From: a virus
IMG/VR virus record: IMGVR_UViG_3300020147_000017
Span: 1-41,726 of that record
Reading direction: 5' to 3' (one strand)
Length of the DNA: 41,726 nt
Shown here one piece after another: positions 128-39,663 of this stretch. Within the stretch, counting starts at the first letter, position 1. Every line of letters begins with the position of its first letter. The translations under genes and the position numbers were made by a program. The notes below the pieces were generated by a model. That model saw only the letters and a program-made list of their open reading frames with translations, had not been told where the DNA came from and did not search any database.

Positions 128-417
128 TAAATAGACAGGTACACGATGTGACTGTAGGGGTTGAAGTCCTTACAACTCGCGTTACTGTTACCACTACTGC
201 TACAGCTTTTCCGCCTACGCCGTTGACCAACAGACAATTCGTTAGAATCCAGAATGTTGGCAGTGCGACTATTTTTATTGGAGGCACAAATGTTTCAAGC
301 ACTAACGGATGGCAGGTAATGCCGTATCAGGTAGAAACATTCGCTATTGAAGACACGGCCAGTATTTATGGCATTTCAGGAGGTTCCGTTGACGTTATCG
401 TCATGGAGGGGCTATGA
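82..417 (+). CDS. Small virion-associated beta protein
   Basis: The 111-residue product has no signal peptide or membrane segment. Residues 45-105 are beta-rich and follow a pattern seen in small phage structural proteins: an L-T-N-R motif, an IQN-G segment, IYIG-like strands (here TIFIGG), then a G-W-x-V turn. Such proteins often sit between capsid genes and head-tail connector genes, which is where this one lies. The ATG follows the coiled-coil stop by 3 nt, and the stop overlaps the next ATG (TATGA), so it is part of the late operon. A neck or decoration role is inference from position. Confidence 0.6.
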   Translation: MVRKAFSPNEGFKDGLNRQVHDVTVGVEVLTTRVTVTTTATAFPPTPLTNRQFVRIQNVGSATIFIGGTNVSSTNGWQVMPYQVETFAIEDTASIYGISGGSVDVIVMEGL

Positions 418-1541
418 CATTTTTAGAAATCCAGACAGCCGTTACCAATATTAGCAACGTCCAACAGCAGTCAACATTAATAAGGCAGGCTATTAATATT
501 GCTTTATTGCGTGTTGCTGAATACTTTGAATGGCCGTTTTACATGGTTAATACAGGTGTAATTAATACCGTTGCGCCGTATTCTACTGGTACGGCTACTG
601 TGACAAACGGCTCCGTTACCATTACTGGTTCTGGAACTTCCTGGACTTCCGATATGGTTGGAAGAAAGATCCGCGTAGGAAATGGTCAACCGTATTATCG
701 AATTAAATCCATTGACAGTTCTACTTCCATGACACTTGTTACCCAGTTTCAGGGGAGCACAAGTTCCGGGAATAGCTACACGATTTACAAGGACGAATAC
801 CGTTTGGCTTCTGATGTGGATACCTATAATACGGTTATTCAGCTTCAAAATGCTACAGCAATGTTTTCGACCCCTCCCGATAGATTCGATAAGTTTTTTC
901 CATCTCCATATTCATACTCAAGCCCTACGTTGGAGATTATGGAGGGGACAACCTTAGATACGTACACGACAGGAACAGTAACAGCAACTGCCAATTCTAC
1001 AACTATTGTAGGTGTTGGAACTGGATGGAGTTCTGTTCCTGGTCTAGGTCGCATGAGTAAGATTACAGTCGGATCAACAAATCAGGTTGTTTATACAATC
1101 AAGCGTGTGATTGACGATACAAATTTAGAGATCTATGAGACACCTACAAGCACACAGACTGCAACAACGTATTCGATATCCATGAATAATTTGATGGTTC
1201 AAGTATATCCAATACCTGCCATGCAAGAGAATCTGTATTATCGGTATCGTAGAATTCCTACACCATTAGTTAATTCATACGACGAACCGGATTTGCCTAC
1301 GCAATGGCATTGGCTGCTTATTTACGGGGCGTTGAGCTTTATTTTCTTACAGAAGGGGGATATTAACAAATCTCAGGTAGAGTCTGAGGCAAGGTTTCTT
1401 CAAGGACTTCAACAGATGAAGTCCAAGCTTGGTAGTTATGCTTCTGCTCGAAAATGGTTAATGCAGTCACAAGATACATATATTAGGACAGGGGACGGAC
1501 TTGAAAAAAGCACGTTTGATAGACGCTATTCGGCTCCCTAG
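414..1541 (+). CDS. Head-tail adaptor/connector protein
   Basis: The 375-residue product looks like a podoviral head-completion adaptor. It has a helical N terminus (residues 1-45), two similar beta modules and a helical C terminus (about 290-345, with QWHWLLIYGALSFIF). The two beta modules each contain a T-V-T-x-x-x-G-x-G-T-x-W signature, near residues 58-80 and 180-210, suggesting an internal duplication. It starts inside the previous stop (ATGA coupling) and overlaps the next gene by 41 nt. No signal peptide is present, in contrast to the next gene. Function is inferred from fold pattern and position between the capsid and tail genes. Confidence 0.6.
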   Translation: MTFLEIQTAVTNISNVQQQSTLIRQAINIALLRVAEYFEWPFYMVNTGVINTVAPYSTGTATVTNGSVTITGSGTSWTSDMVGRKIRVGNGQPYYRIKSIDSSTSMTLVTQFQGSTSSGNSYTIYKDEYRLASDVDTYNTVIQLQNATAMFSTPPDRFDKFFPSPYSYSSPTLEIMEGTTLDTYTTGTVTATANSTTIVGVGTGWSSVPGLGRMSKITVGSTNQVVYTIKRVIDDTNLEIYETPTSTQTATTYSISMNNLMVQVYPIPAMQENLYYRYRRIPTPLVNSYDEPDLPTQWHWLLIYGALSFIFLQKGDINKSQVESEARFLQGLQQMKSKLGSYASARKWLMQSQDTYIRTGDGLEKSTFDRRYSAP

Positions 1542-3210
1542 CCTAATATTAGCGTTATTTTTTGTTCTTTCTCATAATTCTTGGGCGCAAGTCCCTTGGA
1601 TTAAATATTCTTATTTCGCCAATTATGGGGGATTAAACGACAACCTCTCGCAATTGGAAATAGCTGATAATGAAGCTACAGCCATCCAGAATGTTGTTTT
1701 TGATACCGGCGGCGCCCTTATTAAGCGTTATGGGTATAAGAATATTATTGATAGTCCAAACTCTACGTATAAGCTTGGTGCAAACGTCACAGGTGTTCCT
1801 GGAATTGCTTTCTACCAGAAAACCAATGGAAACAAATATATATTCGCTATTGGTAACAACGGAGGGCAAGCTCAAGGGTATTCAAAAACAATAGATAATT
1901 CAGGGGATGTTCCAACAGGAGCTTGGGATGACCAAGGGACAGGAAATTTACCAGCCAATTTTAATAATAACCAATTAGCTACATTCTCTGTTGCTGAGAA
2001 TACGCTGGTAATGACTGTTGCGGGGAGCTCTATTAATACGACTTACCCCTCCGCTTGGCAAGCTACTGGGAATGTCTATTTATTCACAACAGACCCAGAT
2101 TGTCCTAAGGCTAAATATAATGCCTACCATAAGAATATTTTATTCTTAGCTGGCGACCCAGATAATCCTTCTAGAGTTTCTTTTAGTGATTTAAATGGGG
2201 GAATCACTAATTGGATAGCCACAGATTTTTTTGACTTAGATAAGGATAACGGCCAGTTTGTTACTGGCCTTGTTTCAGCATTTGGGAATCTGTATATATT
2301 TGAAAATAACAGCATATGGATGCTCTCAGGTTCTAATCGAGATGATTTCAGCCTTCAGAAGATGGTTGATAATGTGGGGACACTTTCGCAACAATCAATT
2401 GCCATTGTTAATAACGCTATATTTTTTGTAACATCTCAGAATGATATTGCTGTGTACGATGGAGCTTTTACAGTTAAATTTGTTAGTAGCAAGATTAGGA
2501 ACACTATCGGTAGCAATAATTTTGACCGTGCAGCACAAACACTAGGAATAGGGTACTCTTCTTACAGGTATAAAGACCTTGATTATTATGCCGCAGAATC
2601 AGTTGTAGGAAGTTCTGAGAATAATCAGGTATTGTTATTTGATACATATCGCAGTGCTTGGACGATACTCGATAATATTAGACCTAATTCCTGGATGGTT
2701 ATGCCAAATGCTAGTGGGGCTAATCAACTGGTGTGGGGAGATTATAACGGTCTAGTTTACGCGTACCCAGATCAGGGAAGCTATAGTGACGTTTCGAATA
2801 CCTGTTCTGGAGCTGGCCCCTGCACCACAACTTCTCCTGGGATTTACTCGTTTTATCAAACGAAATGGTTTAGGTATCCAGAGGCAGCTTTAGGCGATAA
2901 GTACCTAAGATTGCTTAAAACATATGTTATTAATTCTTCAACTAATTCTTCAACCCTACAGATTGAAGTTAAATCGGATTACGCTTCATCTGGGAATATA
3001 TATACCTTTAATTACACGCCATCAGGGGCATTGTGGGAAGTTTCATTATGGAATGATGCAGTTTGGGGCGGTGGGGGCCTGAATATAGACCGTGAAGAAG
3101 TAGGGTTAGGTACGCAGATGTTTCAGATTAGGTATTCCAATAGAACAGCAGATCAGGATATGAGTATTTTAGGTTTCGAGACCTTTATTGAGCCTACGAC
3201 GAGGATATGA
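1501..3210 (+). CDS. Tail nozzle/tubular-like protein with Sec signal peptide
   Basis: The 569-residue product begins at a TTG overlapping the adaptor gene, with a purine-rich ribosome site (GGGGACGG) just upstream. Residues 1-30 are a signal peptide: basic start, hydrophobic core LILALFFVLS and a likely cut after SWA before QVP. The mature part has repeated beta-strand or propeller-like segments and an N-terminal pattern (NYGGLNDN, then N-x-V-F-D-T-G-G-A-L-x-K-R-Y-G) typical of podoviral nozzle or tail-tubular-B-like proteins. No ATG lies in frame between the signal and residue ~165, so a signal-free form is unlikely. A signal peptide is not expected on this family. Confidence 0.6.
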   Translation: MKKARLIDAIRLPSLILALFFVLSHNSWAQVPWIKYSYFANYGGLNDNLSQLEIADNEATAIQNVVFDTGGALIKRYGYKNIIDSPNSTYKLGANVTGVPGIAFYQKTNGNKYIFAIGNNGGQAQGYSKTIDNSGDVPTGAWDDQGTGNLPANFNNNQLATFSVAENTLVMTVAGSSINTTYPSAWQATGNVYLFTTDPDCPKAKYNAYHKNILFLAGDPDNPSRVSFSDLNGGITNWIATDFFDLDKDNGQFVTGLVSAFGNLYIFENNSIWMLSGSNRDDFSLQKMVDNVGTLSQQSIAIVNNAIFFVTSQNDIAVYDGAFTVKFVSSKIRNTIGSNNFDRAAQTLGIGYSSYRYKDLDYYAAESVVGSSENNQVLLFDTYRSAWTILDNIRPNSWMVMPNASGANQLVWGDYNGLVYAYPDQGSYSDVSNTCSGAGPCTTTSPGIYSFYQTKWFRYPEAALGDKYLRLLKTYVINSSTNSSTLQIEVKSDYASSGNIYTFNYTPSGALWEVSLWNDAVWGGGGLNIDREEVGLGTQMFQIRYSNRTADQDMSILGFETFIEPTTRI

Positions 3211-3506
3211 GACCGCTATTTTTCATTTTAATTTTTATGACGTCTCCAGTATTCGCTGGAAGTTCAATTAATAAGAATTGGGAGATATTTACACCTCCTC
3301 CTGTTACGAATCATAATTTATATAACTATTTGTATTTTATTTATAGTCATTTTAATCAGGCTCAGATTGTCACGATCGATCCAGACGGTTCTCTGGAAGG
3401 CCAAGCTGGGGACTATGTCTTATATAACAATTCAGGAACATGGCAAATTTGTTTTGAAACAGATCAACCTAATGGAACAACTTGGAAATGTGCAAACTTA
3501 AGTTAA
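3207..3506 (+). CDS. Small exported virion protein (fibre-anchor-like)
   Basis: The 99-residue product has a clear Sec signal peptide (MRPLFFILIFMTSPVFA, cut before GSS). The mature part is about 80 residues, with a conserved-looking segment N-H-N-L-Y-N-Y-L followed by D-G-S-L-E-G-x-x-G-D. This resembles the N-terminal adapter segments of the two fibre proteins downstream (N-E-N-x-L-Y-S-Y-L). Two cysteines near the C terminus (WQIC and WKC) could form a disulphide after export. Its ATG overlaps the upstream TGA, and its end overlaps the next gene. An adapter role is inference. Confidence 0.55.
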   Translation: MRPLFFILIFMTSPVFAGSSINKNWEIFTPPPVTNHNLYNYLYFIYSHFNQAQIVTIDPDGSLEGQAGDYVLYNNSGTWQICFETDQPNGTTWKCANLS

Positions 3507-4684
3507 TTTTTTTGGCCTTATTTGTTTCATATTCTGCAACAGTTTACGCTGCGCCTCCTAATCGCACTTATAACTATGTGGCGCATACAACCATTGATCC
3601 AAATCAGAATAATACTAATGAAAATAATTTGTATAGCTATCTACAGGCTGGGGTAGATACATACGCGGCGGGAAGTATTGATAATACAGCCATATCTAAT
3701 AGTGCAGGGATTGCGTATTCCAAGCTTAATTTAATTGGCAGCATAACAAATAACGACATTAATTCTTCTGCTGGAATTGTCGCAAGCAAATTAGATTTGA
3801 CCTCACCTGGGCCTATTGGCAGTACAGCATCAAATACGGGTGCATTTACATCCTTAACAGGTACAACGCTTTTTACTACGGGGAATATAGGTGTTGGCAC
3901 CTCTACGGCTAATGGCAGGCTTATAGTCCAGGGGGGCAATGTGGGTATCGGCACGGTTAATCCGAATGCAACCTTAACCGTAGCTGGGATTGTTTACAGC
4001 ACAAGTGGAGGATTTAGATTTCCAGACAATACTATTCAGACTACAGCGCCACGCCTAGGGCAGGTTTTTACATCATCAGGAACATTTGAGGCTCCGACAG
4101 GCGTTACAAGAGTTTATCTTGTTGGCATCGCTGGAGGAGGGGCTGGAGCGGGGATTAACAATGTTAGTAACACTGGCGGCGGAGGCGGCGGTTCTGGGCA
4201 ATGGATTACACCAATGTATCCATATACCGTTGTACCTGGAAATAGTTATACAGTCACTGTGGGATCAGGTGGAACAGGGGTAGCCGGAGGGGGTGGAAGC
4301 AGTGGCGGCAATAGTGTATTCGATACTTTAACCTTACTTGGGGGAACGGGTGGAAGTGGCACAACAGGTGGATCAACGGCAAGTGTCACCGGAGCAGGAA
4401 CAGCTGGAAGCGCTGGAGGGTCAGGAGGGTCGGGTGGCGGAGTCGTGAAAACGGCCGTAGCAGGTGGCGCTGGCGGATCGGGGGCTTCCAGTAGCGGCGG
4501 TGGCGGTGCGGGATCACCGTATGGTACAGGTGGAACAGGTGGAGAATTCAACGGTGCAGGAGGAACTAGCCCTACAGCTGGATCAGGATTCGGTTCAGGT
4601 GGAGGAGGTGGCGCTGCTACAAGCGGGGGGTCACAGAGTACTGGAGGGAACGGCGCCCCGGGTTTCTGGGCAGTTTTCTATTAG
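3488..4684 (+). CDS. Glycine-rich tail fibre/adhesin with signal peptide
   Basis: The 398-residue product starts with a signal peptide (MCKLKLIFLALFVSYSATVYA, cut before APP). An anchor domain follows (about residues 22-60) that is nearly the same as in the next gene, then repeats of I-A-Y-S-K-L type, two GNxGxGT motifs (about 140-165), and a C-terminal half dominated by GGGG/GGSG runs. The last domain begins F-x-x-S-G-T-F-x-x-P-T-G-V-x-x-V, as in phage glycine-rich receptor-binding domains that stack as polyglycine-II helices. It probably binds the host surface. A TTG at 3482 adds two residues; I chose ATG 3488 because the hydrophobic core follows directly. Confidence 0.7.
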   Translation: MCKLKLIFLALFVSYSATVYAAPPNRTYNYVAHTTIDPNQNNTNENNLYSYLQAGVDTYAAGSIDNTAISNSAGIAYSKLNLIGSITNNDINSSAGIVASKLDLTSPGPIGSTASNTGAFTSLTGTTLFTTGNIGVGTSTANGRLIVQGGNVGIGTVNPNATLTVAGIVYSTSGGFRFPDNTIQTTAPRLGQVFTSSGTFEAPTGVTRVYLVGIAGGGAGAGINNVSNTGGGGGGSGQWITPMYPYTVVPGNSYTVTVGSGGTGVAGGGGSSGGNSVFDTLTLLGGTGGSGTTGGSTASVTGAGTAGSAGGSGGSGGGVVKTAVAGGAGGSGASSSGGGGAGSPYGTGGTGGEFNGAGGTSPTAGSGFGSGGGGGAATSGGSQSTGGNGAPGFWAVFY

Positions 4685-4699
4685 GAAAGAGAAATTATA

Positions 4700-5530
4700 A
4701 TGATTTATCTGATTATATTATTTTTATCTGTTTCAAGCTTTGCATATGCTGCGGCACCAACGAGAGCCTATACATATGTGTCCAATACGCCTATTGATCC
4801 TTCTCAAAATAATACGAATGAAAATGCTCTATATTCTTACTTACAAACTGGAGTAGATACATATGCTTCTGGATCTATAACGGGGGATGCTATATCAGCT
4901 ACAGCAGCTATTGCGTATAGCAAACTTGCTCTTACGAATAGTATCGTTAATGCAGATATTTCGCCTTCAGCGGCTATTGCTGACAGCAAGTTAGCACAGA
5001 TAACCACGGCAGGAAAAGTATCCGGGGCCGCGCTAACATCGTTATCATCTACCCCCGCAGGTGCTGGGGCATTTCCGGCGGCCAATATTACAGATTTTAC
5101 TCTATCTGGTCAGGGTCAGGGGGCGATTGCATATAAGGGAGCTTCTAATTGGGCTGCCTTGGATGCAGGATCAACAGCCGGACTTGTGCTGAAAACCAAT
5201 ACGTCAATTAGCGCGCCATCTTGGGTAAATAGTTTAGGGGCCGTAGCTGACTACGGAACAAGTACGTCTTCCTCCACAGCACGACAAGGGACTGCCTTGA
5301 AAGTTGCCTATGGTCAGGTTTCTATAGGGGCTTCCAGCAGCACAACAATAACTAATTTAGCCTTCTCTTCCTCGACATCATTTTCTTTTGTAATAACTCA
5401 AGTTGGCACCGGTCCTGGTTCTGTCGGTGAGAATCCAAGGATATCGATATCAAGTGGTTCATCCGTGACCATTTTTAATGATTACTCTGGAGCCACATTA
5501 ACTTATACGTGGATGGCTATGGGAACGTAG
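4700..5530 (+). CDS. Second tail fibre, paralogous N terminus, signal peptide
   Basis: The 276-residue product has a signal peptide (MIYLIILFLSVSSFAYA, cut before AAP). Residues 18-60 match the anchor region of the previous gene: R-x-Y-x-Y-V, then I-D-P-x-Q-N-N-T-N-E-N-x-L-Y-S-Y-L-Q-x-G-V-D-T-Y. Further I-A-Y-S-K-L repeats follow, then a different beta-rich C terminus without the polyglycine block. The two genes look like a duplicated anchor carrying different binding tips. A ribosome site (AGGAAAGAG) precedes the ATG. Confidence 0.65.
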   Translation: MIYLIILFLSVSSFAYAAAPTRAYTYVSNTPIDPSQNNTNENALYSYLQTGVDTYASGSITGDAISATAAIAYSKLALTNSIVNADISPSAAIADSKLAQITTAGKVSGAALTSLSSTPAGAGAFPAANITDFTLSGQGQGAIAYKGASNWAALDAGSTAGLVLKTNTSISAPSWVNSLGAVADYGTSTSSSTARQGTALKVAYGQVSIGASSSTTITNLAFSSSTSFSFVITQVGTGPGSVGENPRISISSGSSVTIFNDYSGATLTYTWMAMGT

Positions 5531-5532
5531 TA

Positions 5533-5871
5533 ATGACATTAGAAGAGAAAATAAACTTAGCTTTCGACATCATTAAACGCGCTGGAATTCAGGACAATGA
5601 AGACGCTGTGTTATCCATAGCGGACTGTGTTAAGCATGACAGATTTTTTTATGAGGTAAACCAAGGAAAAATTGTCGTATTTCTAACATGGGAAGATAAC
5701 AGGATTGACGGAAAGCGATACATTTTCGTGAATAATTGCTGGGTGGAGCCTTCGTATAGAAGCCAAAATGTTTTGGTAAGGGTTCGTACAGCTTTAAAGT
5801 ATGTTCTTGGAGATGTTTATAAATTTTATTGGCACGACAGAAAGAAAGATAAGCTGATTTATAGGAGATAA
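5533..5871 (+). CDS. GNAT-like small protein, possible internal virion protein
   Basis: The 112-residue product begins at the ATG right after the fibre stop (TAGTAATG). Its second half reads like a truncated GNAT fold: I-F-V-N-N-C-W-V-E-P-S-Y-R, then R-x-x-x-A-L-K-Y-V, then a terminal Y-x-x-x-R-K-K. GNAT-like proteins occur among podoviral internal proteins (T7 gp13 type) at this place between tail and ejection genes. No acetyl-CoA-binding signature is clear, so catalysis is doubtful. There is no signal peptide. Confidence 0.45.
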   Translation: MTLEEKINLAFDIIKRAGIQDNEDAVLSIADCVKHDRFFYEVNQGKIVVFLTWEDNRIDGKRYIFVNNCWVEPSYRSQNVLVRVRTALKYVLGDVYKFYWHDRKKDKLIYRR

Positions 5872-5873
5872 AT

Positions 5874-6677
5874 ATGTTGTGGATGAATGATCCGAGAAGC
5901 ATTGCTGGGGGTTTTGGCATTATCAATCAGGATTTTGGCTCTTCTAAGGATAAAAAGAGAGCAGAAACTGGGATTAGAGAAGCTGGAGAACAGGCTTACC
6001 AGAGAGCGGCCCAAACAGGAGAAGAGAAAGATCAGTATTCTAAGTCTTTTCAATTAGGCGACTTTCTTAGAAGTATATATTTAGGACAACAGGGATTAGG
6101 TGATTTGCCCGAAGGATATATGACGGGTGAGGATCAGATAAAGAATCAGGGGGATCTTGGAAAAGCGTTTTATTCTCAGGTTTTATCAGAGACACAAGAC
6201 CCAAATGCGTATTTTCAAAGTACATTGCAGCCTGAACTTATGGCTGCGCAGGATACTATTAATTCATATTATCAAAAGCGCGGGTTATTAAATTCGGGGT
6301 TAGCAATCGAGTCTATGGGCCGTGCAGGGGTAGATTTAGCCATTAAGGAAGCCCAGGCACGTATGGCCTCACGGCAACAGGCTCTGAACAATGCCTTACA
6401 AGTTAGTCAGTATGGAGCTAATTTAGCTAATAATAACATGTCTGGGTTGTCGAATTTGTATTCAACTCAACAAAATGCGGGGCTTAATTCACTGAGTAGA
6501 CAAGCTACAGGAGCATTTAATAACGCTCAATATCAGGCCTATCCTCATCAGGCACAACTTGGGAATTATTACGGAGGGCAAGCTGCTTTACATGCGCTTC
6601 CAGGTCAATTGTTAGGTGCGGCTGCTAAGGTTGCAACGGCTAAAGCAGGCGGTAATCCAGGCGGGGCCACTGCTTAA
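5874..6677 (+). CDS. DNA ejection/internal virion protein
   Basis: The 267-residue product is alanine-, glutamine- and glycine-rich and mostly helical. It contains Y-x-Q-K-R-G-L-L-N-S-G-x-A (about residues 123-135), a pattern common in ejection proteins of P22-like and other podoviruses. There is a C-terminal small-residue hydrophobic stretch (AALHALPGQLLGAAAKVA). It has no signal peptide. It is first of three adjacent genes of this class, following its neighbour by 2 nt with AGGAGA as ribosome site. Confidence 0.55.
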   Translation: MLWMNDPRSIAGGFGIINQDFGSSKDKKRAETGIREAGEQAYQRAAQTGEEKDQYSKSFQLGDFLRSIYLGQQGLGDLPEGYMTGEDQIKNQGDLGKAFYSQVLSETQDPNAYFQSTLQPELMAAQDTINSYYQKRGLLNSGLAIESMGRAGVDLAIKEAQARMASRQQALNNALQVSQYGANLANNNMSGLSNLYSTQQNAGLNSLSRQATGAFNNAQYQAYPHQAQLGNYYGGQAALHALPGQLLGAAAKVATAKAGGNPGGATA

Positions 6678-6689
6678 TTAGGAGATATT

Positions 6690-7718
6690 ATGGCATTATC
6701 AGATCCTTTTGACACAACATACAGCGGTTCTTTTAAATCGGGTTTGGCTTTAGGGGAAGGGGTTGGCCAGGTCGCACAAGCCTACGGTGACAATAAGGCC
6801 AAGGAGAATAAACTAAAGAAAACTTCAGATATGCTTCGCCAGTTTGGGATACTTCGTGAAGAAGAGCCTAGCTATGAGGAATATAAGAAAGCTGCCGATG
6901 ATTACATGAAGCAGACGGGCAGCAGTATCCAGGTAGATACTGAAGGCAAGACTGATGAAGAAAAGATTAAAACATTAGACAGTATTTTCAAGGCCGTAGG
7001 GATTCCTAAGCCCAAAAGCGGTCGCGTGACGTTAGATGCCAATAAAGCTAGTGAATTAGGAATGGAGTATGACACCGATACGGGAGATTTAAAGTTTAAG
7101 CCGTCTAAGAATTCGTTATCACAATTTGGCCTAACAGGTGTTCCTGAGGGATTTGAAGTAGTTGGGTTCGATCAGAAGGGGCAGCCTATGGTACGCAAAG
7201 AAAAGACAGAGACAATCCCCGCAAGCGTGCAGAATGCCAAGAACAAGGAACTTAAAGAAATAAAGATTGATACTGAGAAGAATAAAGTCACCCGTGAGCG
7301 TGTAGATGAAGCTGTTAAGGCGCTAGATAAGATTCCCTCTGGTTTAGGCGGAAGAATGGCTATTGCAGGGAGCAAAATGTTTAATCCAGACGATCCAGTG
7401 CTTGGAGAATGGCAGAAGGTTAAGACTGTTTTAACAGATGCCACATTGCTTAATACAGCTTATACCAAAGGCGCTATTTCTGATAAAGAAATGGAATTGT
7501 TTAAGGAAGCCGCAGCAGACGATAATTTGGCTTCTAAGCCTGCTGTTAAGGTGGTTTTCGATAAGCTAGTCAGATTCTTGGATGCTGAGGAGAAGGGCAA
7601 AAGAGAAGCTTTCAAGGAATCATACGGAGAAGATCCTGTGGGTTCCTCGGAAAGTAGTGGCGTGGATTTCTCAACCATGTCAGACGATGAACTAAAGGCA
7701 ATTATCAATGAACGATAA
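6690..7718 (+). CDS. Ejection/internal virion protein, helical
   Basis: The 342-residue product is highly charged and mostly helical, with an N terminus (residues 1-35) like other ejection proteins and a C-terminal block (about 230-300) that includes D-P-V-L-G-E-W-Q-K-V-K-T-V-L. An A-I-S-D-K-E-M-E-L-F-K-E-A-A motif also occurs in P22 gp16-type and other injected proteins. A strong AGGAG site precedes the ATG. It overlaps the next gene by 11 nt. Role is inferred from motif and position. Confidence 0.5.
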   Translation: MALSDPFDTTYSGSFKSGLALGEGVGQVAQAYGDNKAKENKLKKTSDMLRQFGILREEEPSYEEYKKAADDYMKQTGSSIQVDTEGKTDEEKIKTLDSIFKAVGIPKPKSGRVTLDANKASELGMEYDTDTGDLKFKPSKNSLSQFGLTGVPEGFEVVGFDQKGQPMVRKEKTETIPASVQNAKNKELKEIKIDTEKNKVTRERVDEAVKALDKIPSGLGGRMAIAGSKMFNPDDPVLGEWQKVKTVLTDATLLNTAYTKGAISDKEMELFKEAAADDNLASKPAVKVVFDKLVRFLDAEEKGKREAFKESYGEDPVGSSESSGVDFSTMSDDELKAIINER

Positions 7719-8925
7719 TATTAAACAACAAGCTATGAAGGAATTGGCTCGTCGAGAGTTGGCAAAACGTGAATCGTCACGTACTCCTACGGCTGTTTCA
7801 GAACCTGAAAGCGTTGCGACTATGGGCGTTGACTACGTTCGCCAACATCCCTTTAAGTCGTTATTTCAAGGACTTCCGCAGACACTTACAGGTAAGACAG
7901 TAGAAGACAGGGCAGTTGAGAATATTAACAGTCCTGATTTTATGCAGGTTGAAAGCGCACCATACGATCGGCAGATTCCGCGGGCTGGGAATGCGGCGTT
8001 TAATCGTGTGGTTGGTGGTCAGATGGCTGACATGGCTACAGCACCTGCGAATGCTTTAGCTGCGCCCGTTTTAAAAGGTGTAGGGATGGCTGGGGGAGCA
8101 ATTAAAAGCGCTGTCCAAGGCACTCCTATAGGAAAATTAATCTCCGATATGGGTAAATATTCTAAGCCTCAAGCCCAGGCTGAATTTGCTGATGAAGTCC
8201 AGAATGCTCTATTAAGTCGCAAGAGATCGGTAATTGATAACTTTGGTAAAGACTACGAAGGTATTATCGGTAAATCAGACAAGAGCGTCTCACTCGATGC
8301 TCCATTTAGAAATTTCGTCGATAACGCTCAAAGTCTTATGCAAAACCCTGAATTTTCGCAACAGGTAGCTGCTAAGAATCCTCAAGCAAACAGAATATTC
8401 GATTTAGTTAATAAATTCTCTAAGAGAGATTATTCGACGGAAGTTTCGGCCAAGGAAGCCGATAACATTGTTAAATTTATCAATAATCTCCCTTCTATTA
8501 GAACAAAGTTAAACCAAGGTCGTAAGAATGGATGGCATACAGTCCAATGGACTAATGAAGACCGCATGTTAATTGAATTGGCCGACGATATTAAATCTAC
8601 TGTAGTAGATATTCATCCTGAATTGGGGGCATTAAATAAATCCTACGGGAGTTTTATGAGTAAGTATAAGTCAGTTGCTCCTGAATTTAGGATTGGGTCT
8701 ACGGTTGAAAAGATGAAGAAATATAGCCAGTTAGATCCTCAGAAAAAGGTTATGTTCGAGGAAATAATGCCAAGAGGGACAGTTAATAAGATTAAGGAAT
8801 TTGAAAGGGCGCAGGCCACTTCGCAACTGTTAAAGAAGATAGGATTAACTGGTGCCGGAGCCTTCGGTCTTGGCACAATGGGCAAATTAGGCATGGATGC
8901 CGCAGGGATTGCTACTCAGGAATAA
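7708..8925 (+). CDS. Large ejection/internal virion protein
   Basis: The 405-residue product is alanine- and lysine-rich, with a central small-residue hydrophobic segment (about 110-135, APANALAAPVLKGVG) and a C-terminal G-L-T-G-A-G-A-F-G-L-G segment that could insert in membrane during ejection. The remainder is helical. It lies last in the ejection trio. The region 8926-9012 after it holds no gene I can support, only the ribosome site of the next fibre. Confidence 0.5.
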   Translation: MNDNIKQQAMKELARRELAKRESSRTPTAVSEPESVATMGVDYVRQHPFKSLFQGLPQTLTGKTVEDRAVENINSPDFMQVESAPYDRQIPRAGNAAFNRVVGGQMADMATAPANALAAPVLKGVGMAGGAIKSAVQGTPIGKLISDMGKYSKPQAQAEFADEVQNALLSRKRSVIDNFGKDYEGIIGKSDKSVSLDAPFRNFVDNAQSLMQNPEFSQQVAAKNPQANRIFDLVNKFSKRDYSTEVSAKEADNIVKFINNLPSIRTKLNQGRKNGWHTVQWTNEDRMLIELADDIKSTVVDIHPELGALNKSYGSFMSKYKSVAPEFRIGSTVEKMKKYSQLDPQKKVMFEEIMPRGTVNKIKEFERAQATSQLLKKIGLTGAGAFGLGTMGKLGMDAAGIATQE

Positions 8926-9012
8926 TCCTAATTTTAAGCAATATAAGCGGAATGAGTATGTAGCAGAATATGAACTCGTACATGATTAAAAAATATCACT
9001 TTAGAGGCACAG

Positions 9013-11124
9013 ATGCAAATTAAATTATTCGCTATCTTTTTTTTCTTTTTAGTTTCGTTTAATGCAACAGCGCAGTCTGTTACTGGGCCGCAGTCTACCC
9101 GTGCGCCGTTAAATATATGTACCGCCGATCAAGTTACTTGTACATGGCCCTATAAGCTTAATTTTTCTGGGGCTTCAGTTACAAATAATGGGGATGGGAC
9201 GGCTACCGTAACCGTTACTCCAAGTAGCGCCACAAACGTAGGCGTAGGTACAACTGGCAGACATTTAGTCTATACAAGCACTAATACTGCTGGCGCATCT
9301 GTGTCAATATTTGAAGCTTCAGGGAATATTGGTATAGGCTCCATTCCTGTATCGAATAAATTAGAAGTAACAGGTACAACCCAGATTGGCCCGGCTGCCT
9401 GTGTTGCTACTGGAGGAACAGTAACAACCTCTGGCGGCTACACAATTCATACATTTACATCCAATGGGACATTGACTGTCACAAGCGGATGTTCGAATGC
9501 TGAGTATTTGATCGTCGCTGGCGGGGGCGGTGGCGGTACCGGAATTGGAGGAGGAGGGGGAGCAGGGGGACTCTTACAAGGGACTGGAACAACCTTAACA
9601 GCCCAAGCATATTCTATCGTTGTTGGTTCTGGTGGTGGTGCAGACGCATCTGGAAACAATTCGTCTTTTAATGGTCTGACAGCCATAGGAGGGGGCGCAG
9701 GGGGTCGTTTTAATAACGTAGCCTGTACCACTGGGGGATCAGGTGGTGGTGCTGGGGGTGCCTCAACAGGAACGCCTCAAGGATGTGACGGCACAGCAGG
9801 ACAAGGAAATCGTGGCGGTAATGGTAATTCAGCATCAGGCGCAGGTTCTGCAGGTGGTGGTGCTGGTGCCGGAGCCAATGGGACAAATGCCTCTGGGCTG
9901 GGCTCTCCGGGTAACGGGGGGACAGGTATTAATTCCTCGATCACAGGTACTACCGTCATGTACGCCTGCGGGGGTGGTGGCGGGTTCAACAACGGGACTC
10001 AAGGCTGCTCCTCTGCCGGAAATGGGGGCAATGGTGTCAGCCAACCCGGAGGGAATGCTGTAGCCAATACTGGGTCTGGTGGTGGTGGCGGAAGCAACTC
10101 ATCCGGGGCAGGCGGTACAGGCGGAAGCGGGATTGTGGTTGTCCGTTATCCTACAACATCTTATCTAAGGGTATCAACGTCTGGAAATGTTGGTATCGGT
10201 TTACAATCCCCAGTTAATACATTAGACGTTGAAGGCAACGTTGCAATTGGGGAGCTATATTCTGGTGCAAGCATGGCCCCTTCAAATGGTCTCATTGTGC
10301 AGGGAAATGTCGGTATCGGCACCACCACGCCTCAAGGTGGATTAGTTGTGACCAATGGCAGTGTAGGTATCGGAACCTGGGCCCCGAACAACGTTTTACA
10401 AGTTGCGCATGGTAATAATTCAAGCGTAGGCGTTCGTGTTACCGATTTACAAGGCAATTCCCTCGGCTTGACCGCCTCTAAAGGGTCGAATGGATTGCCT
10501 TTTATTGGAAGTTTCAGCAACAATGCCCTAACGTTAGGTGCCGTCGGTAACGAGCATGTCAGAATCAGTACCGAGGGTAATGTTGGTATTGGTTCTATCG
10601 CGCCAAAAGCTACCTTGAATGTTCTTCAAACATCCGCCGCAGATGCCTTCCGGGTTGACGATGTTTCTGGGGATACAACCCCATTCGTTATTGATTCGAA
10701 TGGCAATGTGGGTATCGGCACTACGGTGGCGAACGCCGAGAAACTTAGGATTACTGGCAGTAATGATGGTGGTAATGTTGTGGGTATTACGATCAAGAAC
10801 GCTAATTCAATGGTTGGAACGGCAGTTTCCATCGATTTAAACACATTTGCTACGGATTCCCGTGGCCCCCGTATTCAGGGTATCCGTACGAATGCCAGTA
10901 ATTTCGAAAGCGCATTGGCATTTTCTACTGACGGTGCGGGGCAGACCGAAAGGATGCGGATAGATACAAATGGTAATGTCGGTATTGGTTCAACAGCACC
11001 ACAAGACCTATTGGTCGTCCAAGGTCAGTTTAGAGTAACTGATACAAACACCGGCGGTAATGCTGGAACATCGGCTTGCATTGATGCCAGTGGGCGTTTA
11101 TGTGCGTGTGGAACGTGTGAATAG
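9013..11124 (+). CDS. Large VGIGT-repeat tail fibre with signal peptide
   Basis: The 703-residue product has a signal peptide (hydrophobic core of six phenylalanines, cut near NATA before QSV), a glycine-rich receptor-type domain (about 150-375), then at least eight G-N-V-G-I-G-(T/S/L) repeats spaced 20-60 residues apart (about 390-680), as in trimeric beta-helical fibres. It ends in a cysteine-dense tail (C-I-D-A-S-G-R-L-C-A-C-G-T-C). I count twelve cysteines in the mature chain, mostly in close pairs, which fits disulphide formation outside the cytoplasm. The ribosome site AGAGGCACAG precedes ATG. Confidence 0.65.
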   Translation: MQIKLFAIFFFFLVSFNATAQSVTGPQSTRAPLNICTADQVTCTWPYKLNFSGASVTNNGDGTATVTVTPSSATNVGVGTTGRHLVYTSTNTAGASVSIFEASGNIGIGSIPVSNKLEVTGTTQIGPAACVATGGTVTTSGGYTIHTFTSNGTLTVTSGCSNAEYLIVAGGGGGGTGIGGGGGAGGLLQGTGTTLTAQAYSIVVGSGGGADASGNNSSFNGLTAIGGGAGGRFNNVACTTGGSGGGAGGASTGTPQGCDGTAGQGNRGGNGNSASGAGSAGGGAGAGANGTNASGLGSPGNGGTGINSSITGTTVMYACGGGGGFNNGTQGCSSAGNGGNGVSQPGGNAVANTGSGGGGGSNSSGAGGTGGSGIVVVRYPTTSYLRVSTSGNVGIGLQSPVNTLDVEGNVAIGELYSGASMAPSNGLIVQGNVGIGTTTPQGGLVVTNGSVGIGTWAPNNVLQVAHGNNSSVGVRVTDLQGNSLGLTASKGSNGLPFIGSFSNNALTLGAVGNEHVRISTEGNVGIGSIAPKATLNVLQTSAADAFRVDDVSGDTTPFVIDSNGNVGIGTTVANAEKLRITGSNDGGNVVGITIKNANSMVGTAVSIDLNTFATDSRGPRIQGIRTNASNFESALAFSTDGAGQTERMRIDTNGNVGIGSTAPQDLLVVQGQFRVTDTNTGGNAGTSACIDASGRLCACGTCE

Positions 11125-11155
11125 AACATTAACAGAAATAGGAAAGTGGAAAATT

Positions 11156-16661: not shown

Positions 16662-16683
16662 TACTTTCCTTTCTTTATTTACT

Positions 16684-16780: not shown

Positions 16781-16790
16781 ATATATTGAA

Positions 16791-16867: not shown

Positions 16868-16875
16868 ATATTGGG

Positions 16876-17510: not shown

Positions 17511-17524
17511 TTGAAACCACCTTT

Positions 17525-17572: not shown

Positions 17573-17575
17573 TGT

Positions 17576-32737: not shown

Positions 32738-34459
32738 GTGAAAGACATTATTGATTTTGCCGTTTCACGGTTTGGAAAACGTGAGAAGGATTTATATAAG
32801 CAGTTATCGACGGCTGGACGCAAAGAGTTATTAAAAGAGTTTTTCCGTCGGGATTTTAGAAGTTTGATTTATATGCTGGGTTATAAGGAACTCGGCGCGT
32901 TTCATTGCAAGGAAGTAGAGGCTCTTTCTCAGATTAGGGTGTTGGATGAAGTGACTCCGATTAGAAATTTATGGATCTGGAGTCGTGGGTTTTTTAAGAC
33001 GACGTTGATAACCGAGTGTCACAGCGTTTATTTGATTATAAATAACCCGAATATAAGGATGTTGTTGTGCAGTAACACGATTGGTATTTCGACGGATATG
33101 CTCAGGAATATTAAAGGGCATTTCATGGCGAACGTGGCGTTTAGGCATTTTTTCCCGGAGTTTTGTCCGAAGCCGAATTCTGTTGGGAAGGTTGAGTTCG
33201 GTACGAGCCAGGATTTTACAGTGCCATGCCGGGTACTGGCCCGTAAGGAACCGACGATAATGGTTGCGGGTGTCGGGACTAACCTTACGGGTTTGCACTT
33301 TGATTATATGAAGTTGGACGATTTGGTGACGAAGGACAGCGTAACGAATGACACGCAGATACAGGCAAGCAAGGATTATTATTCGAGTTTAAGACCGTTG
33401 TTTGATAAGGCGGCAGTACCCCGTGAGGATGTAGTTGGGACGATTTATCACTTCAACGATTTGTACACGTCGGTTTTAAGAAAGAGCGGTTTATTTAAGG
33501 AGTCGTTTATCCCGGCGCGGATTAATGGGGTGGCGACGTTTCCTGAGCGGTTACCGGATGATGAGCTTGAAAAGCTGATTTTAGATCCATCGGTAGGGCC
33601 GTGGCAGTTTGCAACGCAGTATATGTTAAATCCGATTAACCCTGCGGATGCGAAGTTTAGGGAGAGTTGGATTAAAACGTATGTCGTGGGTGATGTTGGA
33701 GGAAGCGATTATAAGAAATTACCAGAAGGATTGGCGGAATATGTATTGGTTGACCCTGCCTCGACGACAAAAAAGAAAAGTGATTACACGGTTATTGAGC
33801 GGTGGGGGATCGATTCTGAGGGGAATCAATATTTGCTGGAAGGAATAAGGGATAAGCTGACAGCGTTTCAGAGAATAGACAAGTTATTTGAGATCGTCGA
33901 TAAATGTAAAAATTTAAAGTGGGTTAAATATGAAGTTATTGGTGGCCGTCACGGAGATTTGGAAGAAATTGAAAGGCGTCAGGTGGAGGCGTTTCGAAAG
34001 AAAACGCCAGTACTGGGAAGACGAAGATTTACTGTAAAAGAAACGAAATCGACGGTTGCGAGCAAAGTTGACCGCATCGAGCAGAGGTTGGTTGGTCAGT
34101 ACCACGCGGGGAAAGTATTTTGGCCAGAGCATTTGTATTTTGTAAGTAAGTATAGCGGTAAAGTTGAAGATTTTGTGCAGTTGTTAAAGCTTGAGTTTCT
34201 GCAGTTTCCGTTCTGCGAACACGATGATGCGTTAGATTGCCAGGCCCAGATGTTCGATGAGCCGTTTATAAGAGGAGAGAAGCAGGCTGAACGGGTCCAG
34301 ACGAATAATATGTCGGCGGATAACTGGGAGAAGATGTATAGGGAAATTGATAAGTATAAGAACCGATACCCGAATCTGACAGCGGCAGAGATACAGAACA
34401 AAATATTTAGTCACAGGGTAGGAAATAAGTTGCGCAGTATGCAGTTTAGAAAGGTTTAA
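32738..34459 (+). CDS. Terminase large subunit
   Basis: The 573-residue product starts at GTG with GAGG upstream. Deviant Walker A S-R-G-F-F-K-T-T (82-89), Walker B M-K-L-D-D (191-195), and the nuclease domain with D339 (L-V-D-P-A-S), D349 (S-D-Y) and D-D-A-L-D near residue 500 fit a TerL that pumps DNA and cuts concatemers. Its stop overlaps the portal ATG (TTTAATG). The circularly closed assembly is consistent with headful packaging, but that is inference. Confidence 0.9.
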   Translation: MKDIIDFAVSRFGKREKDLYKQLSTAGRKELLKEFFRRDFRSLIYMLGYKELGAFHCKEVEALSQIRVLDEVTPIRNLWIWSRGFFKTTLITECHSVYLIINNPNIRMLLCSNTIGISTDMLRNIKGHFMANVAFRHFFPEFCPKPNSVGKVEFGTSQDFTVPCRVLARKEPTIMVAGVGTNLTGLHFDYMKLDDLVTKDSVTNDTQIQASKDYYSSLRPLFDKAAVPREDVVGTIYHFNDLYTSVLRKSGLFKESFIPARINGVATFPERLPDDELEKLILDPSVGPWQFATQYMLNPINPADAKFRESWIKTYVVGDVGGSDYKKLPEGLAEYVLVDPASTTKKKSDYTVIERWGIDSEGNQYLLEGIRDKLTAFQRIDKLFEIVDKCKNLKWVKYEVIGGRHGDLEEIERRQVEAFRKKTPVLGRRRFTVKETKSTVASKVDRIEQRLVGQYHAGKVFWPEHLYFVSKYSGKVEDFVQLLKLEFLQFPFCEHDDALDCQAQMFDEPFIRGEKQAERVQTNNMSADNWEKMYREIDKYKNRYPNLTAAEIQNKIFSHRVGNKLRSMQFRKV

Positions 34460-36540
34460 TGGGTCACGAGACAGAAATAGCTATCTGGAAACAGCGTGTG
34501 AAGCAGGCCGAGCAGGTTCAGGCTAACCGTCATAACGAATGGCGTCAGGCAATTGCGTTGTTAAATTGCCAGTATTTCGATAAGCATGAGGCAAAGATTG
34601 ACGAGCGGGTAGAAGTTAATTTCGTTAATTGGTATGTGAGTAATTTAGTACCGCTGTTGTATTTCCGTGATCCGTATATTTTTATTAAGTCGAAAACTGC
34701 GGACTGGAGTGGGTTTTCCGAGACGCTAGAGAAAGTCGTAAATGAGATATGGAAAGATCAGAAGTTAAAGCAGCAGTTTAAAAGGGTTATTTTATCGGCG
34801 TTATTGCAGCCTCCGGGTTGGATTAACACCGGCTACATTGCGAAACTGGATGAAGATATTGCAAAAATCGAGGATGATCCTGAGAAAAGCCTCGTTGCGT
34901 CGTTAAAAGATGCCATTAAAAGTGTTTTTAACGCGAAGAAGGATAAGCTACCCGAACAGCAGGGGGTTTTAAGCCAGAATATTAAGGAAGAGAGCATTTT
35001 TGCCGAGTGGATTCCGTCCTGGAACGTGTTAATGGCTCCGGGGTATCACTTGGTCAGTAAAATGCCGTGGATTGCGTACTACGAGGACGTTGCGATCGTT
35101 GATTTTTTGGCGAATCCGCTTTATACGAATAAAAGAAATATTAGAGGCATATATAAGGATGATTCAGTAAGTGGCGGGAAGTTAATCCGTAAGGTTACAT
35201 ATGATAATCCGATACCTGTAAGCGATGTAAAAGACGATATAACCACTATAAGGCTATATCACATTTGGGATAGACGCTCTCAACAACGCATGACTATTAG
35301 CTTAATGAGCGGAGACTATCATTTCAAAGGTGATTGGCCTTATGATTTTGAAGGCTTTCCTCTGGAGCCTTTAGTTTTTGAAGAAACACTCCCTGACAAC
35401 CAGCAAGACATTAGTTCGGATTCAAGTGCTTATCCATACAACATTGTCCGTCCGATTCTCCCACAGGTAAAAGAGCAGTCAAGTGCTCGTTCCCAGATGG
35501 CGGCATATCGTCGTCGGGCAGGTGCAATTATTATTGCACAAGCGGACAAGACCACGGAAGAGGACATGAATCAGATTCAATCGACTGAGGCGGTGCAGTT
35601 GATTCGTGTCACAGACATTAGTGGTTTTATCATGCAGCAGACACCGCAGTTGCCCCCACAGGTGTTCCAGGTAGATGAGGTAATTAAGGAAGATTTACAG
35701 GCTGCGACGAACATGGGTCAGCTGATGTTCCAGGCCCAAGAGGGCCAGCGTACAGCAACGCAGGCTCAGATTGCTCAGAGCGGTTTGCAGTTAAAGATTT
35801 CTGCGAAACAAGACTGCATCGAGGATTTTACCGTTGCTATTGCAAAGAAGATCGCACAGTTGGCATGGCAGTTTTATGACAGAGAAAAAGTTCAGGAATT
35901 AATTGGCGAGATTGTATCCCCGCAGATGTGGCCGGATTTGCCGAAGGATAGAAAAGAACGTCGTCGGATGATTAATAACATGAAGATTTTTATTGATGCG
36001 GGTTCGGCCGCGCCTCCGAAGGACGAGACGGTAGATCGCAAGCAGTTATTAGATGCGATTAGCATCATGGGTTCGATTGCGCCTGAACGTATGAAGAAGG
36101 ACGAGACGTTAAAGGCTGTTTATAAGAGATTTAAGTTCGAGAAGGATATCGACAAGCTGGTTATTAGCAACGACGAAGGCGAACGTGCGTGTGCAATGGA
36201 AGAAAATGAATTATTGATGACGAATATTCCGTGCATCGTAAGCCCGAACAATAACCATTTATTACATTTGGAAGAACACGCAAAGGCAACGCCGACGGCT
36301 GCTAGAGATCAGCATATGTTAGAACACGCACAGTTTGGCGGATTATTGCCTGGTGCAGAAGGAGTTGCGTCAGAGGGCGGCGCACAGAAGGGTGATATTA
36401 GGCCTCCGATGATGTCTACGAATCCTGAAGTTGCTCGTCAGGGTATGCCTTCAACGGATAGGGTTAATGCAAGCGTTCAGGATAAAGGGCCCGGGACCGG
36501 GGATAAGGCGCGCCCGGTAGGTTCGGCAACAGGTGTTTGA
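34459..36540 (+). CDS. Portal protein
   Basis: The 693-residue product follows TerL and has a typical podoviral portal layout: helical start (K-Q-R-V-K-Q-A-E-Q), N-F-V-N-W-Y-V-S-N-L near 53-62, F-Y-D-like wing sequences in the middle, and a helical tail with many Q/A (about 405-440). Large size resembles P22-like portals with a barrel. Disordered last 100 residues. Stop overlaps the next ATG. Confidence 0.8.
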   Translation: MGHETEIAIWKQRVKQAEQVQANRHNEWRQAIALLNCQYFDKHEAKIDERVEVNFVNWYVSNLVPLLYFRDPYIFIKSKTADWSGFSETLEKVVNEIWKDQKLKQQFKRVILSALLQPPGWINTGYIAKLDEDIAKIEDDPEKSLVASLKDAIKSVFNAKKDKLPEQQGVLSQNIKEESIFAEWIPSWNVLMAPGYHLVSKMPWIAYYEDVAIVDFLANPLYTNKRNIRGIYKDDSVSGGKLIRKVTYDNPIPVSDVKDDITTIRLYHIWDRRSQQRMTISLMSGDYHFKGDWPYDFEGFPLEPLVFEETLPDNQQDISSDSSAYPYNIVRPILPQVKEQSSARSQMAAYRRRAGAIIIAQADKTTEEDMNQIQSTEAVQLIRVTDISGFIMQQTPQLPPQVFQVDEVIKEDLQAATNMGQLMFQAQEGQRTATQAQIAQSGLQLKISAKQDCIEDFTVAIAKKIAQLAWQFYDREKVQELIGEIVSPQMWPDLPKDRKERRRMINNMKIFIDAGSAAPPKDETVDRKQLLDAISIMGSIAPERMKKDETLKAVYKRFKFEKDIDKLVISNDEGERACAMEENELLMTNIPCIVSPNNNHLLHLEEHAKATPTAARDQHMLEHAQFGGLLPGAEGVASEGGAQKGDIRPPMMSTNPEVARQGMPSTDRVNASVQDKGPGTGDKARPVGSATGV

Positions 36541-37173: not shown

Positions 37174-37206
37174 TATTAATGCAGTTAGTTGAAAGGTAGT
37201 GAATCT

Positions 37207-38088
37207 ATGGCAGATAACGATAAAACCCTTGGCCAGACGCTTCGCCAGGCGATTGCGGAACCTAAACAGGCGCAATCTCAAGGACAGGCGCAAACTGGAG
37301 AAGGATTATCCGTAGCCACGGCAGGCGAAACGCAGTCGGGTGGAACGCCTGAATACGTAAATGGTGTGGACATTTCCGCATTCCCCGAACAAGAAAGACC
37401 TATAGCTCGTAAGGCTTTGGAAGAAAAAGGCAAGCTTATTGAAAAAGGGTTGCAGAGTAAATTTCAAGAGATTGCCGAGTTTAAGAGACAGCGTGAAGAA
37501 ATATTAAGACTTGGGATATCAGAGAGTGAAGCTGCTCAGATTATCAAGGATCACGTTGCTTCTAAGACTACTGCCAAAGATGCAAAAAAGGAAGCATCCA
37601 GAGTTATTGACCAACTTAAGGAAACCGCCCCAGACTTGGAAACTCGTAAGGGGTTAGAGAACTTAGAGAAGATAATTTTGGAACTTACCAATATCAATGA
37701 TATCCGTAAGGAACTCGATCAATTAAAGGGATACGTACAACATGCTCAAGGTCGTGAATTCCAGACTAGAGAGCAGTCAGTGTCTAATGCACTTAATGCG
37801 TTATCCAGTAAATACGGAAATGAAGTCATTGAGAGGTACCGTGAAGATGTAATTAAGCAGGGATTAGCGTTTCCGGACGTTGATGTCAAGCGATTACTTC
37901 ACGCCATTGCAGATCCTGAAGAGTTAGAGCAAGCTCTCTTGTCCAACAGTGTAAAAAAAGAAGAACGTAAACAAGAGAAAATAAACGCTGTTTCTTCGCC
38001 GGGATCGGGAATGACAATGCCAGCTCAGACTATTGATGTTAGGAACACGTCTTTTAGAGGTTTGCTCTCCCAGATTCGCAAGAAATAG
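37207..38088 (+). CDS. Scaffold protein
   Basis: The 293-residue product is acidic/polar with Q-rich disordered N terminus (1-45), long helices with coiled coil (about 70-200), and a basic C-terminal tail (RNTSFRGLLSQIRKK). This is the standard plan of a capsid scaffold, and it directly precedes the major capsid gene. AAAGGTAG lies upstream of ATG. Confidence 0.7.
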   Translation: MADNDKTLGQTLRQAIAEPKQAQSQGQAQTGEGLSVATAGETQSGGTPEYVNGVDISAFPEQERPIARKALEEKGKLIEKGLQSKFQEIAEFKRQREEILRLGISESEAAQIIKDHVASKTTAKDAKKEASRVIDQLKETAPDLETRKGLENLEKIILELTNINDIRKELDQLKGYVQHAQGREFQTREQSVSNALNALSSKYGNEVIERYREDVIKQGLAFPDVDVKRLLHAIADPEELEQALLSNSVKKEERKQEKINAVSSPGSGMTMPAQTIDVRNTSFRGLLSQIRKK

Positions 38089-38111: not shown

Positions 38112-39104
38112 ATGTCGTATTTGTCCACAACCGTTAATTGGGACACAATTGGTTCTATTACGAACCCGTTGATTTCCCGGAAGGTTTCTGACAACATCAC
38201 GACTCAGATTCCGTTGCTTTATTTATTGGATAAGTTAGGCAACAAGGAATATGAATCGGGTGGTTTGCAGTACAATCTTCCTGTTTTTAAAGAATTGCAA
38301 AATGCTCAGGCCTACAGTGGCTTGACCACCTTGTCTTATGCAGAAACTGACCCTGTCACTTCTGCGATTTATAACCGTAAGCAACTCACCGTGCCTGTAA
38401 CTTTAACAGGTACTAAATTGCTTCAGAACTCTGGTAACGATGAAACGGCCATTATTAATTACATGGAAGTTATCATTGAAGCCGCTCAGGAGTCCATGAA
38501 GCAGTCTATGGATGGCCAGTCCGTTGGTATTTTCTCCAATAATGGGGAATCTGATCTTGGGATTACTGGTCTTCAGAACTTGGTTTCTGGTACTCCTACC
38601 ACTGGAACTACAGGTTCCTTGAGCCGTTCGGCTTATAGCTGGTGGCAGAATCAAACCGCCGAAATTACAACTAACTTCTCTACGAGCGGTCTTCAGGCCT
38701 TCCGTGAGTTGTTCTTTGAATGCGTTCGCGGTAATGAAGTTCCCACCTGCGGTATTTTGACCCAGGCAATGTATATCAACTTGCATCGTTCTTTAACCAG
38801 CACGATCCAATATAACTTGCCTACTCCTAATACTCAAAGTGGTGACTTAGGATTCCAGCATATCTATTTCCAGGGCGTTCCGGTTATGTTTGGGTCTGAT
38901 GTCCCCGCGAATACTGGGTACTTCTTGAACTTAAAGTATATGAAATTGATGGTCGCTCGTGATCGCGATATGACTTTCCGTGATTTCATCAGCCCCACCG
39001 ATCAAGATGCTTTAGTGGGCCGTCTGTACTGGGCGGGTAACTTAGTAGCTTCTAACCTCGCGCGTCAGGGTGTATTTACTGGCTCTGGCGACACCTGGTC
39101 TTAA
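38112..39104 (+). CDS. Major capsid protein
   Basis: The 330-residue product matches HK97-fold major capsid proteins by pattern: N-terminal arm, E-loop-like F-K-E-L-Q-N-A-Q-A-Y-S-G (about 57-68), L-G-I-T-G-L-Q-N-L-V near 149-158, a W-W-Q-N segment and F-Q-G-V-P-V-M-F-G near 254-262. No signal peptide and no cleavable prohead domain is apparent. Codon choice is highly uniform. AGGAGAG precedes ATG. Confidence 0.8.
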   Translation: MSYLSTTVNWDTIGSITNPLISRKVSDNITTQIPLLYLLDKLGNKEYESGGLQYNLPVFKELQNAQAYSGLTTLSYAETDPVTSAIYNRKQLTVPVTLTGTKLLQNSGNDETAIINYMEVIIEAAQESMKQSMDGQSVGIFSNNGESDLGITGLQNLVSGTPTTGTTGSLSRSAYSWWQNQTAEITTNFSTSGLQAFRELFFECVRGNEVPTCGILTQAMYINLHRSLTSTIQYNLPTPNTQSGDLGFQHIYFQGVPVMFGSDVPANTGYFLNLKYMKLMVARDRDMTFRDFISPTDQDALVGRLYWAGNLVASNLARQGVFTGSGDTWS

Positions 39105-39120: not shown

Positions 39121-39663
39121 ATGAAAAGCATTAAATTCATGTTAGTTGCTCTTTTCGTGGTGGCGTTTAGCCCCGTGGTTAGAGCAGAAAACAGCGCAAC
39201 AGCGTTTGACAGCAAAGCTACTACGCAGACCGTTTTCGTTCAGGCGTATAACAACTCTGCCTCAACGTTGTCAGCGAACAATGTCGTTATCTTGGATACT
39301 ACCCAAACGATTAATCCTAATAATTATTTGGGTAGTTATGTGACGACTAACGGTTCCACAACGGACAGCATTTATGTCTTTGGTGTTACAGATGAAAGTA
39401 TTTTATCTGGCAGCCTTGGCCGTATTGCTATCCGTGGGCCGCATAAGGTTGTAATGCCGTCTGTTCCGACGGGTGCTGGAATTGTGATTGGGGCTTGCTC
39501 CAATTCGCCGTCTGGTAACGCTGGGAAGGCGTGTCCTACAACCACAGCCGATGGTACTGCTAGTGGACAATTAGGTTTCTTATTGTCCGCTACGGCAACC
39601 ACCGACACTGGTGACGCCGCCAATACCTATTGGGCTTGGTTGCGTATTAATAGTCACAAGTAA
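39121..39663 (+). CDS. Decoration-like capsid protein with Sec signal peptide
   Basis: The 180-residue product begins with a textbook signal peptide (basic start, core FMLVALFVVAFS, cut after VRA before ENS). The mature part is beta-rich with D-x-I-Y-V-F-G-V-T and G-R-I-A-I-R-G-P-H-K-V, like capsid decoration proteins, and lies directly after the major capsid gene. Two cysteines (GAC and KAC) could pair. AAAGGAG gives high expression. A signal on a decoration protein is unusual. Confidence 0.65.
   Translation: MKSIKFMLVALFVVAFSPVVRAENSATAFDSKATTQTVFVQAYNNSASTLSANNVVILDTTQTINPNNYLGSYVTTNGSTTDSIYVFGVTDESILSGSLGRIAIRGPHKVVMPSVPTGAGIVIGACSNSPSGNAGKACPTTTADGTASGQLGFLLSATATTDTGDAANTYWAWLRINSHK

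Follow-up and report, generated by a model that had tools for sequence, protein, structure and literature searches.

Predicted Sec signal peptides on the outer virion proteins of a podovirus with an Mx8-type late operon

The outer structural proteins of the virus analyzed here begin with predicted cleavable Sec signal peptides, and its inner structural proteins do not. The sequence evidence that these outer parts are exported via Sec is strong, and a particle built in two compartments, with inner parts made in the cytoplasm and outer parts exported, is the reading that we somewhat favor. The accepted view is that a tailed phage is complete before lysis, while still in the cytoplasm. Signals for export across the outer set, among them the nozzle, which normally helps to close the head, would mean that virion assembly has a late step outside the cytoplasm. 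This bears on DNA retention in the head, on the purpose of the holin opening and on how phages could put disulphides or glycans on surface proteins. Cell-free systems, or expression confined to the cytoplasm, may be unable to yield particles of such phages.

Late operon and signals in the window

The window, meaning the whole stretch of DNA that was analyzed, is a virus contig of 41,726 bases. Its ends overlap by 127 bp, so the genome is most likely complete and either circular or circularly permuted. It is a Caudoviricetes podovirus with an Mx8-type late operon, as seen from its related major capsid protein (MCP) and gene order; a megablast search of the window against phages gave no match. 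The late region runs from 32.7 kb across the contig ends to about 11.1 kb, in the order TerL, portal, small Zn-binding protein, scaffold-like protein, MCP, cement-like protein, Wzy_C membrane protein, coiled-coil protein, 111-aa protein, SU10-type adaptor, nozzle, short protein, two fibres, GNAT-like protein, three ejection-type proteins and large fibre. An integrase is also encoded.

Translated genes were scored using a rule-based Sec scorer with a threshold of 2.5. Following calibration on E. coli K-12, with SP labels assigned from general knowledge, the scorer passed 20 of 24 SP genes and 8 of 93 non-SP genes, mostly multi-TM proteins. The main late features, with predicted signals and scores, are as follows.

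32738..34459 (+), terminase large subunit, no signal; phrog_38, E 4e-69
34459..36540 (+), portal, no signal; phrog_156
37189..38088 (+), scaffold-like protein, no signal; assigned by position and composition, with a weak match to phrog_788
38112..39104 (+), major capsid protein, no signal; phrog_9953, E 1.6e-51
39121..39663 (+), cement/decoration-like protein, predicted signal at residues 1-22 (MKSIKFMLVALFVVAFSPVVRA, cut before ENS, score 4.38)
39713..40834 (+), Wzy_C (O-antigen ligase/polymerase-type) membrane protein; PF04932, E 2.4e-15
414..1541 (+), SU10-type adaptor, no signal; PF24175, E 3.4e-15
1501..3210 (+), tail nozzle, predicted signal at residues 1-29 (LKKARLIDAIRLPSLILALFFVLSHNSWA, cut before QVPW, score 4.08); phrog_3287 virion structural protein, E 8e-17
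3207..3506 (+), short protein (~100 aa), predicted exported, signal at residues 1-17 (MRPLFFILIFMTSPVFA, cut before GSS, score 4.01)
3488..4684 (+), glycine-rich tail fibre, predicted signal at residues 1-21 (MCKLKLIFLALFVSYSATVYA, cut before APP, score 4.07); PF21722 Gly_rich_2, phrog_863
4700..5530 (+), another fibre of this family, with an N terminus resembling a signal (MIYLIILFLSVSSFAYA, then AAPT)
5874..8925 (+), three ejection-type internal virion proteins, no signal; placed after nozzle and GNAT as in Mx8-type operons, with no family match of note
9013..11124 (+), large VGIGT/Gly-rich fibre, predicted signal at residues 1-20 (MQIKLFAIFFFFLVSFNATA, cut before QSV, score 4.24); phrog_2295, tail fibre PHROGs, PF21722

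The initial annotation had ascribed classical signal peptides with a basic start to six proteins. Five of these pass the scorer; the sixth, the fibre at 4700-5530, has a hydrophobic core and an AxA cut, but its start carries no K or R, and it fails the strict scoring rule. Its mature start, AAPTRAYTYV, matches exported-type fibres of three relatives (L004, L029 and L054). Whole-protein shuffles passed the threshold in 0.5-5% of cases per positive window protein. The 12 other late proteins of the window (TerL, portal, small Zn-binding protein, scaffold, MCP, coiled-coil protein, 111-aa protein, adaptor, GNAT-like protein and the three ejection-type proteins) all scored below 2.5, in agreement with the earlier statement that capsid, portal, scaffold, adaptor and ejection proteins have no signals. 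The short protein is assumed to sit on the outside of the virion.

Within the virion set, the further claim that signals are confined to outer proteins holds; elsewhere in the genome, a hydrolase-like ORF and a few small ORFs have N termini of export type. The former, at 24962-25435 (-) in the early region, has a weak match to a cell-wall hydrolase family (PF07486, E 0.0037, below cut-off) and a hydrophobic export or anchor segment at its N terminus, and may be a Sec/SAR-type endolysin. Small ORFs at 12025-12249 and 19963-20250 (-), outside the structural set, have signal- or lipoprotein-like N termini.

Conservation of the signals and their absence in outgroups

Relatives were found via nozzle and MCP alignments, single-sequence searches with MCP and nozzle having returned one relative each. 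Together with the window, L004, L007, L020, L026, L029 and L034 make up seven main lineages, with capsid proteins 45-69% identical to that of the window; the nozzles of the six relatives are 39-62% identical. Using the same scorer, signals were predicted for 32 of the 35 outer proteins of these lineages and for none of the 74 inner ones, the two classes being assigned from families, position and homology (Fisher 2e-24, a value that overstates independence because the genomes are related). An n-h-c layout with small residues at -3 and -1, typical of SPase I substrates, was found in 32/35 outer proteins; among 34 outer N termini, neither a Tat twin-Arg motif (0/34) nor a lipobox (0/34) was found.

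Signals are kept on nozzle and cement in all six relatives (7/7 lineages for each protein with the window included), and relatives possessing the short protein and the first fibre keep them on both. Short-protein homologues carry a signal in 6/6 cases, the AG cut site being kept in the three that were aligned. The three outer proteins missed were the 4700 fibre of the window, the large fibre of L029, whose start is short and signal-like (MACALLLCAIGVNA), and that of L034, which has no signal at its N terminus; outer is therefore not strictly equivalent to exported. Two more genomes show part of the pattern. L009 is GC-rich, with an MCP 40% identical to that of the window, and its cement gene has a signal-like start before the contig end. 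L054 is a far relative (nozzle 28%) with signals on cement, short protein and fibre, its cement signal, like that of L009, being recognized by sequence or score. At 4669-4807 of L054, an in-frame nozzle signal precedes the called start and the first ATG; its probable start codon is an ATT that comes after AGGAG, and gene callers would begin at a later ATG and lose the signal. The expectation that signals would be kept while sequences diverge was thus borne out in seven lineages and partially in L009 and L054. Downstream of the ejection genes of L026, five further consecutive signal-bearing proteins are encoded at 16339-21179.

In the nozzle alignment, the stretch before the predicted -1 Ala differs in length and sequence, this Ala is the first invariant column, only small residues (S, A or C) occur at -3, and homology of the mature proteins begins directly after the predicted cut with W-x-K-x-x-Y-F. 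Alignment with Mx8-type nozzles by hhalign (97.3%, E 1.8e-11) begins at residue 42, past the signal, and these signal-less nozzles have a short non-hydrophobic leader in its place. The start codon of the window nozzle is a TTG that falls within the last part of the adaptor gene. In general the nozzle signal overlaps the adaptor gene by 1-53 nt in another frame, so gene callers may trim it. An SD with an alternative start downstream of the signal was found in none of the nozzles or window outer genes and in nearly none of the cement genes checked (an SD-like TTG at codon 38 in two homologues). AF2 models of nozzle and cement had pLDDT values of 43 and 49, and PDB sequence searches gave no useful match. 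The nozzle of L034 (4150-6447) contains an inserted domain of ~200 aa, LamG-like by eye, at the position of a Cys-x5-Cys loop in the window and L004 nozzles.

The cement homologue of L020 matched PF09956 Phage_cement_2 with E 1.8e-4 and 22.3 bits, under the 24-bit cut-off, and the window protein gave no match to this family. Homology of the cement with the Mx8-type decoration protein was considered and rejected following hhalign. Mature fibre N termini bear a weak and merely suggestive likeness to the N termini of signal-less fibres. By eye, the MCP gene of L020 (9980-11626) is interrupted by an intron-like insert carrying a homing-endonuclease-like ORF (10603-11148).

Syntenic outgroups were provided by Mx8, Mx9, BUCT555, ppBjS10J-1 and ctMlz233, which share TerL, portal, scaffold, MCP (~26-34% identical), a gene at the decoration position, adaptor, nozzle (homologous by profile), GNAT and ejection proteins with the window. 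They differ in that no signals were found on their late proteins (0/67) and no Wzy_C gene was seen in their annotated stretches. The SU10/P22-type tails are comparable in the SU10_adaptor Pfam match of the window adaptor and the beta-rich nozzle, whereas the structural proteins of P22 and T7 have no signals (0/25). Distant nozzles (L035-L040, L052, L053, L055 and L056) also begin without signals. Homologues starting downstream of the signal, named in the initial annotation as evidence against it, occur only in such distant phages, which as a group are signal-less on outer proteins; this fits a lineage-specific gain and does not fit a mis-called start. In the MCP tree, a single clade (100/100) unites the eight window-like lineages, and L054 stands apart on a long branch, so signals were gained once or twice.

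A genome scan with the MCP gave no match. The same scan with the nozzle gave one contig, in a Sulfuricurvum MAG; the contig does not match the MAG well in tetranucleotide profile (0.72-0.73, as compared to 0.93 between two MAG contigs), so it was not used to assign a host.

Proposed assembly route and alternatives

From family membership, TerL, portal, scaffold, capsid, adaptor and ejection proteins would remain in the cytoplasm and yield a DNA-filled head closed by the adaptor. Cement, nozzle, the ~100-aa protein and the fibres, with their predicted cleavable Sec signals, would be moved across the inner membrane, have the signal removed and fold on the far side. The exported parts may then join the heads at the inner-membrane opening during lysis, or otherwise outside the cytoplasm, e.g., in the periplasm. 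A difficulty for this two-compartment route is that the nozzle-less head has to retain its DNA until lysis; a plug formed by the adaptor or the 111-aa protein is a speculative answer.

As a sub-hypothesis, the linked Wzy_C protein might add a lipid-linked glycan to the exported parts before docking. Wzy_C enzymes of known function work on the outer face of the inner membrane, with lipid-linked glycans as substrates. The window protein scores 57 bits against a Pfam cut-off of 31.7; as regards a PglL-type protein O-oligosaccharyltransferase, Pfam gave only the generic Wzy_C domain for it, and NCBIfam gave nothing above cut-off for six homologues. The gene follows the cement gene directly, or after one small ORF, in the window, L004, L007, L020, L029, L026 and L054, and is absent from this position in L034. 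In the L007 record (the reverse complement of L021+L022), the Wzy_C protein lies at 5725-6828 in the structural operon, and what appears by eye to be a second similar membrane protein lies downstream of the large fibre. In the signal-less L052, L055 and L056, GT2, Anp1-like or FkbM-plus-GT2 enzymes, expected to act in the cytoplasm, are encoded between head and adaptor genes. Set against these, the co-occurrence of Wzy_C with signals means that the modification step may have moved out; the correlation, resting on few lineages, suggests, short of proof, that surface glycosylation moved out together with the exported proteins.

There is an even chance, however, that export is real and Wzy_C is a separate lysogenic-conversion gene altering the host O antigen. 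Phage-borne O-antigen conversion is known (gtrABC, annotated in P22), and the Wzy_C family spans WaaL and Wzy besides protein glycosylases. Against this stand the fixed position beside cement in seven lineages, unlike that of a free moron, and the other glycan genes that signal-less relatives carry between their head and adaptor genes.

The twelve cysteines first reported for the large fibre (9013-11124) are present, several of them closely spaced. Mature outer proteins contain 9.4 Cys per 1000 aa and inner proteins 2.8 (3.4x), although MCP and portal contain some too. This enrichment agrees with the oxidizing compartment proposed in the initial annotation, but it lends that idea weak support, because Cys numbers in outer proteins are often odd, and those of the nozzle are not conserved and do not consistently add up to even counts. 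The full scheme, in which cement, nozzle and fibres are Sec-exported, oxidized and Wzy_C-glycosylated in the periplasm and mounted at lysis, is put forward tentatively, as possible rather than probable.

Export might instead serve mainly the host surface (decoy, superinfection exclusion or adhesion), with a cytoplasmic fraction building the virion. VGIGT/Gly-rich fibres could act as surface adhesins, the Wzy_C gene fits a change of the envelope, and the integrase makes a lysogenic stage possible. We consider this unlikely: the signal-bearing genes lie within the late structural operon, nozzle and head cement have no plausible surface role on their own, both are single-copy, and no internal start would yield a cytoplasmic nozzle. 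With one nozzle gene in a genome having the 127-bp terminal overlap, the exported form must serve the particle. Display on the host cell only, one of the two outcomes envisaged at first, is likewise improbable, since the exported-type set includes the sole nozzle gene and the cement-like protein.

A slightly poorer prospect is that the hydrophobic N termini stay uncut on the virion proteins and act in assembly or in contact with a membrane, e.g., at the adaptor-nozzle joint. The platform domain of the SU10 nozzle touches the adaptor (PMC9509320), so a hydrophobic end could matter there. Such segments would have had to originate separately on each of cement, nozzle, short protein and fibres; their n/h/c layout and invariant -1 Ala would be unexpected, and syntenic relatives do without them. 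A prediction artefact, whether from mistaken start codons or from ends that are hydrophobic by chance in AT-rich DNA, is strongly disfavored. In its favor are the TTG start of the window nozzle and its overlap with the adaptor gene, the fibre without a basic start, and the false positives of the scorer on TM proteins. Against it, the inner proteins of the same genomes remain at zero, the signals are conserved in seven lineages, SDs precede most signal starts and there is no conserved later start.

Comparison with known systems

Two-compartment assembly would give an ordinary Mx8-type podovirus architecture an unusual assembly route. In the bacterial flagellum, outer ring parts (FlgA, FlgH, FlgI) travel via Sec and inner parts by another route; it resembles the proposed assembly in working principle only and is unrelated. 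The virion proteins pIII and pVIII of the filamentous phage M13 carry signals. Filamentous phages likewise route virion proteins through host secretion machinery (PMC4823517), but they contain ssDNA and are extruded through the envelope, whereas the window represents a tailed dsDNA phage with a head proposed to be cytoplasmic. A cleavable signal peptide on a tailed-phage protein is found in the T4 antiholin RI (PMC8385771); this protein and Sec/SAR endolysins are lysis regulators or enzymes and not virion parts. In the open-access literature, no tailed phage was found described with signals on its outer structural set, which is not proof of absence. For rumen Bacteroides phages, 1-2 predicted signal peptides per genome are reported.
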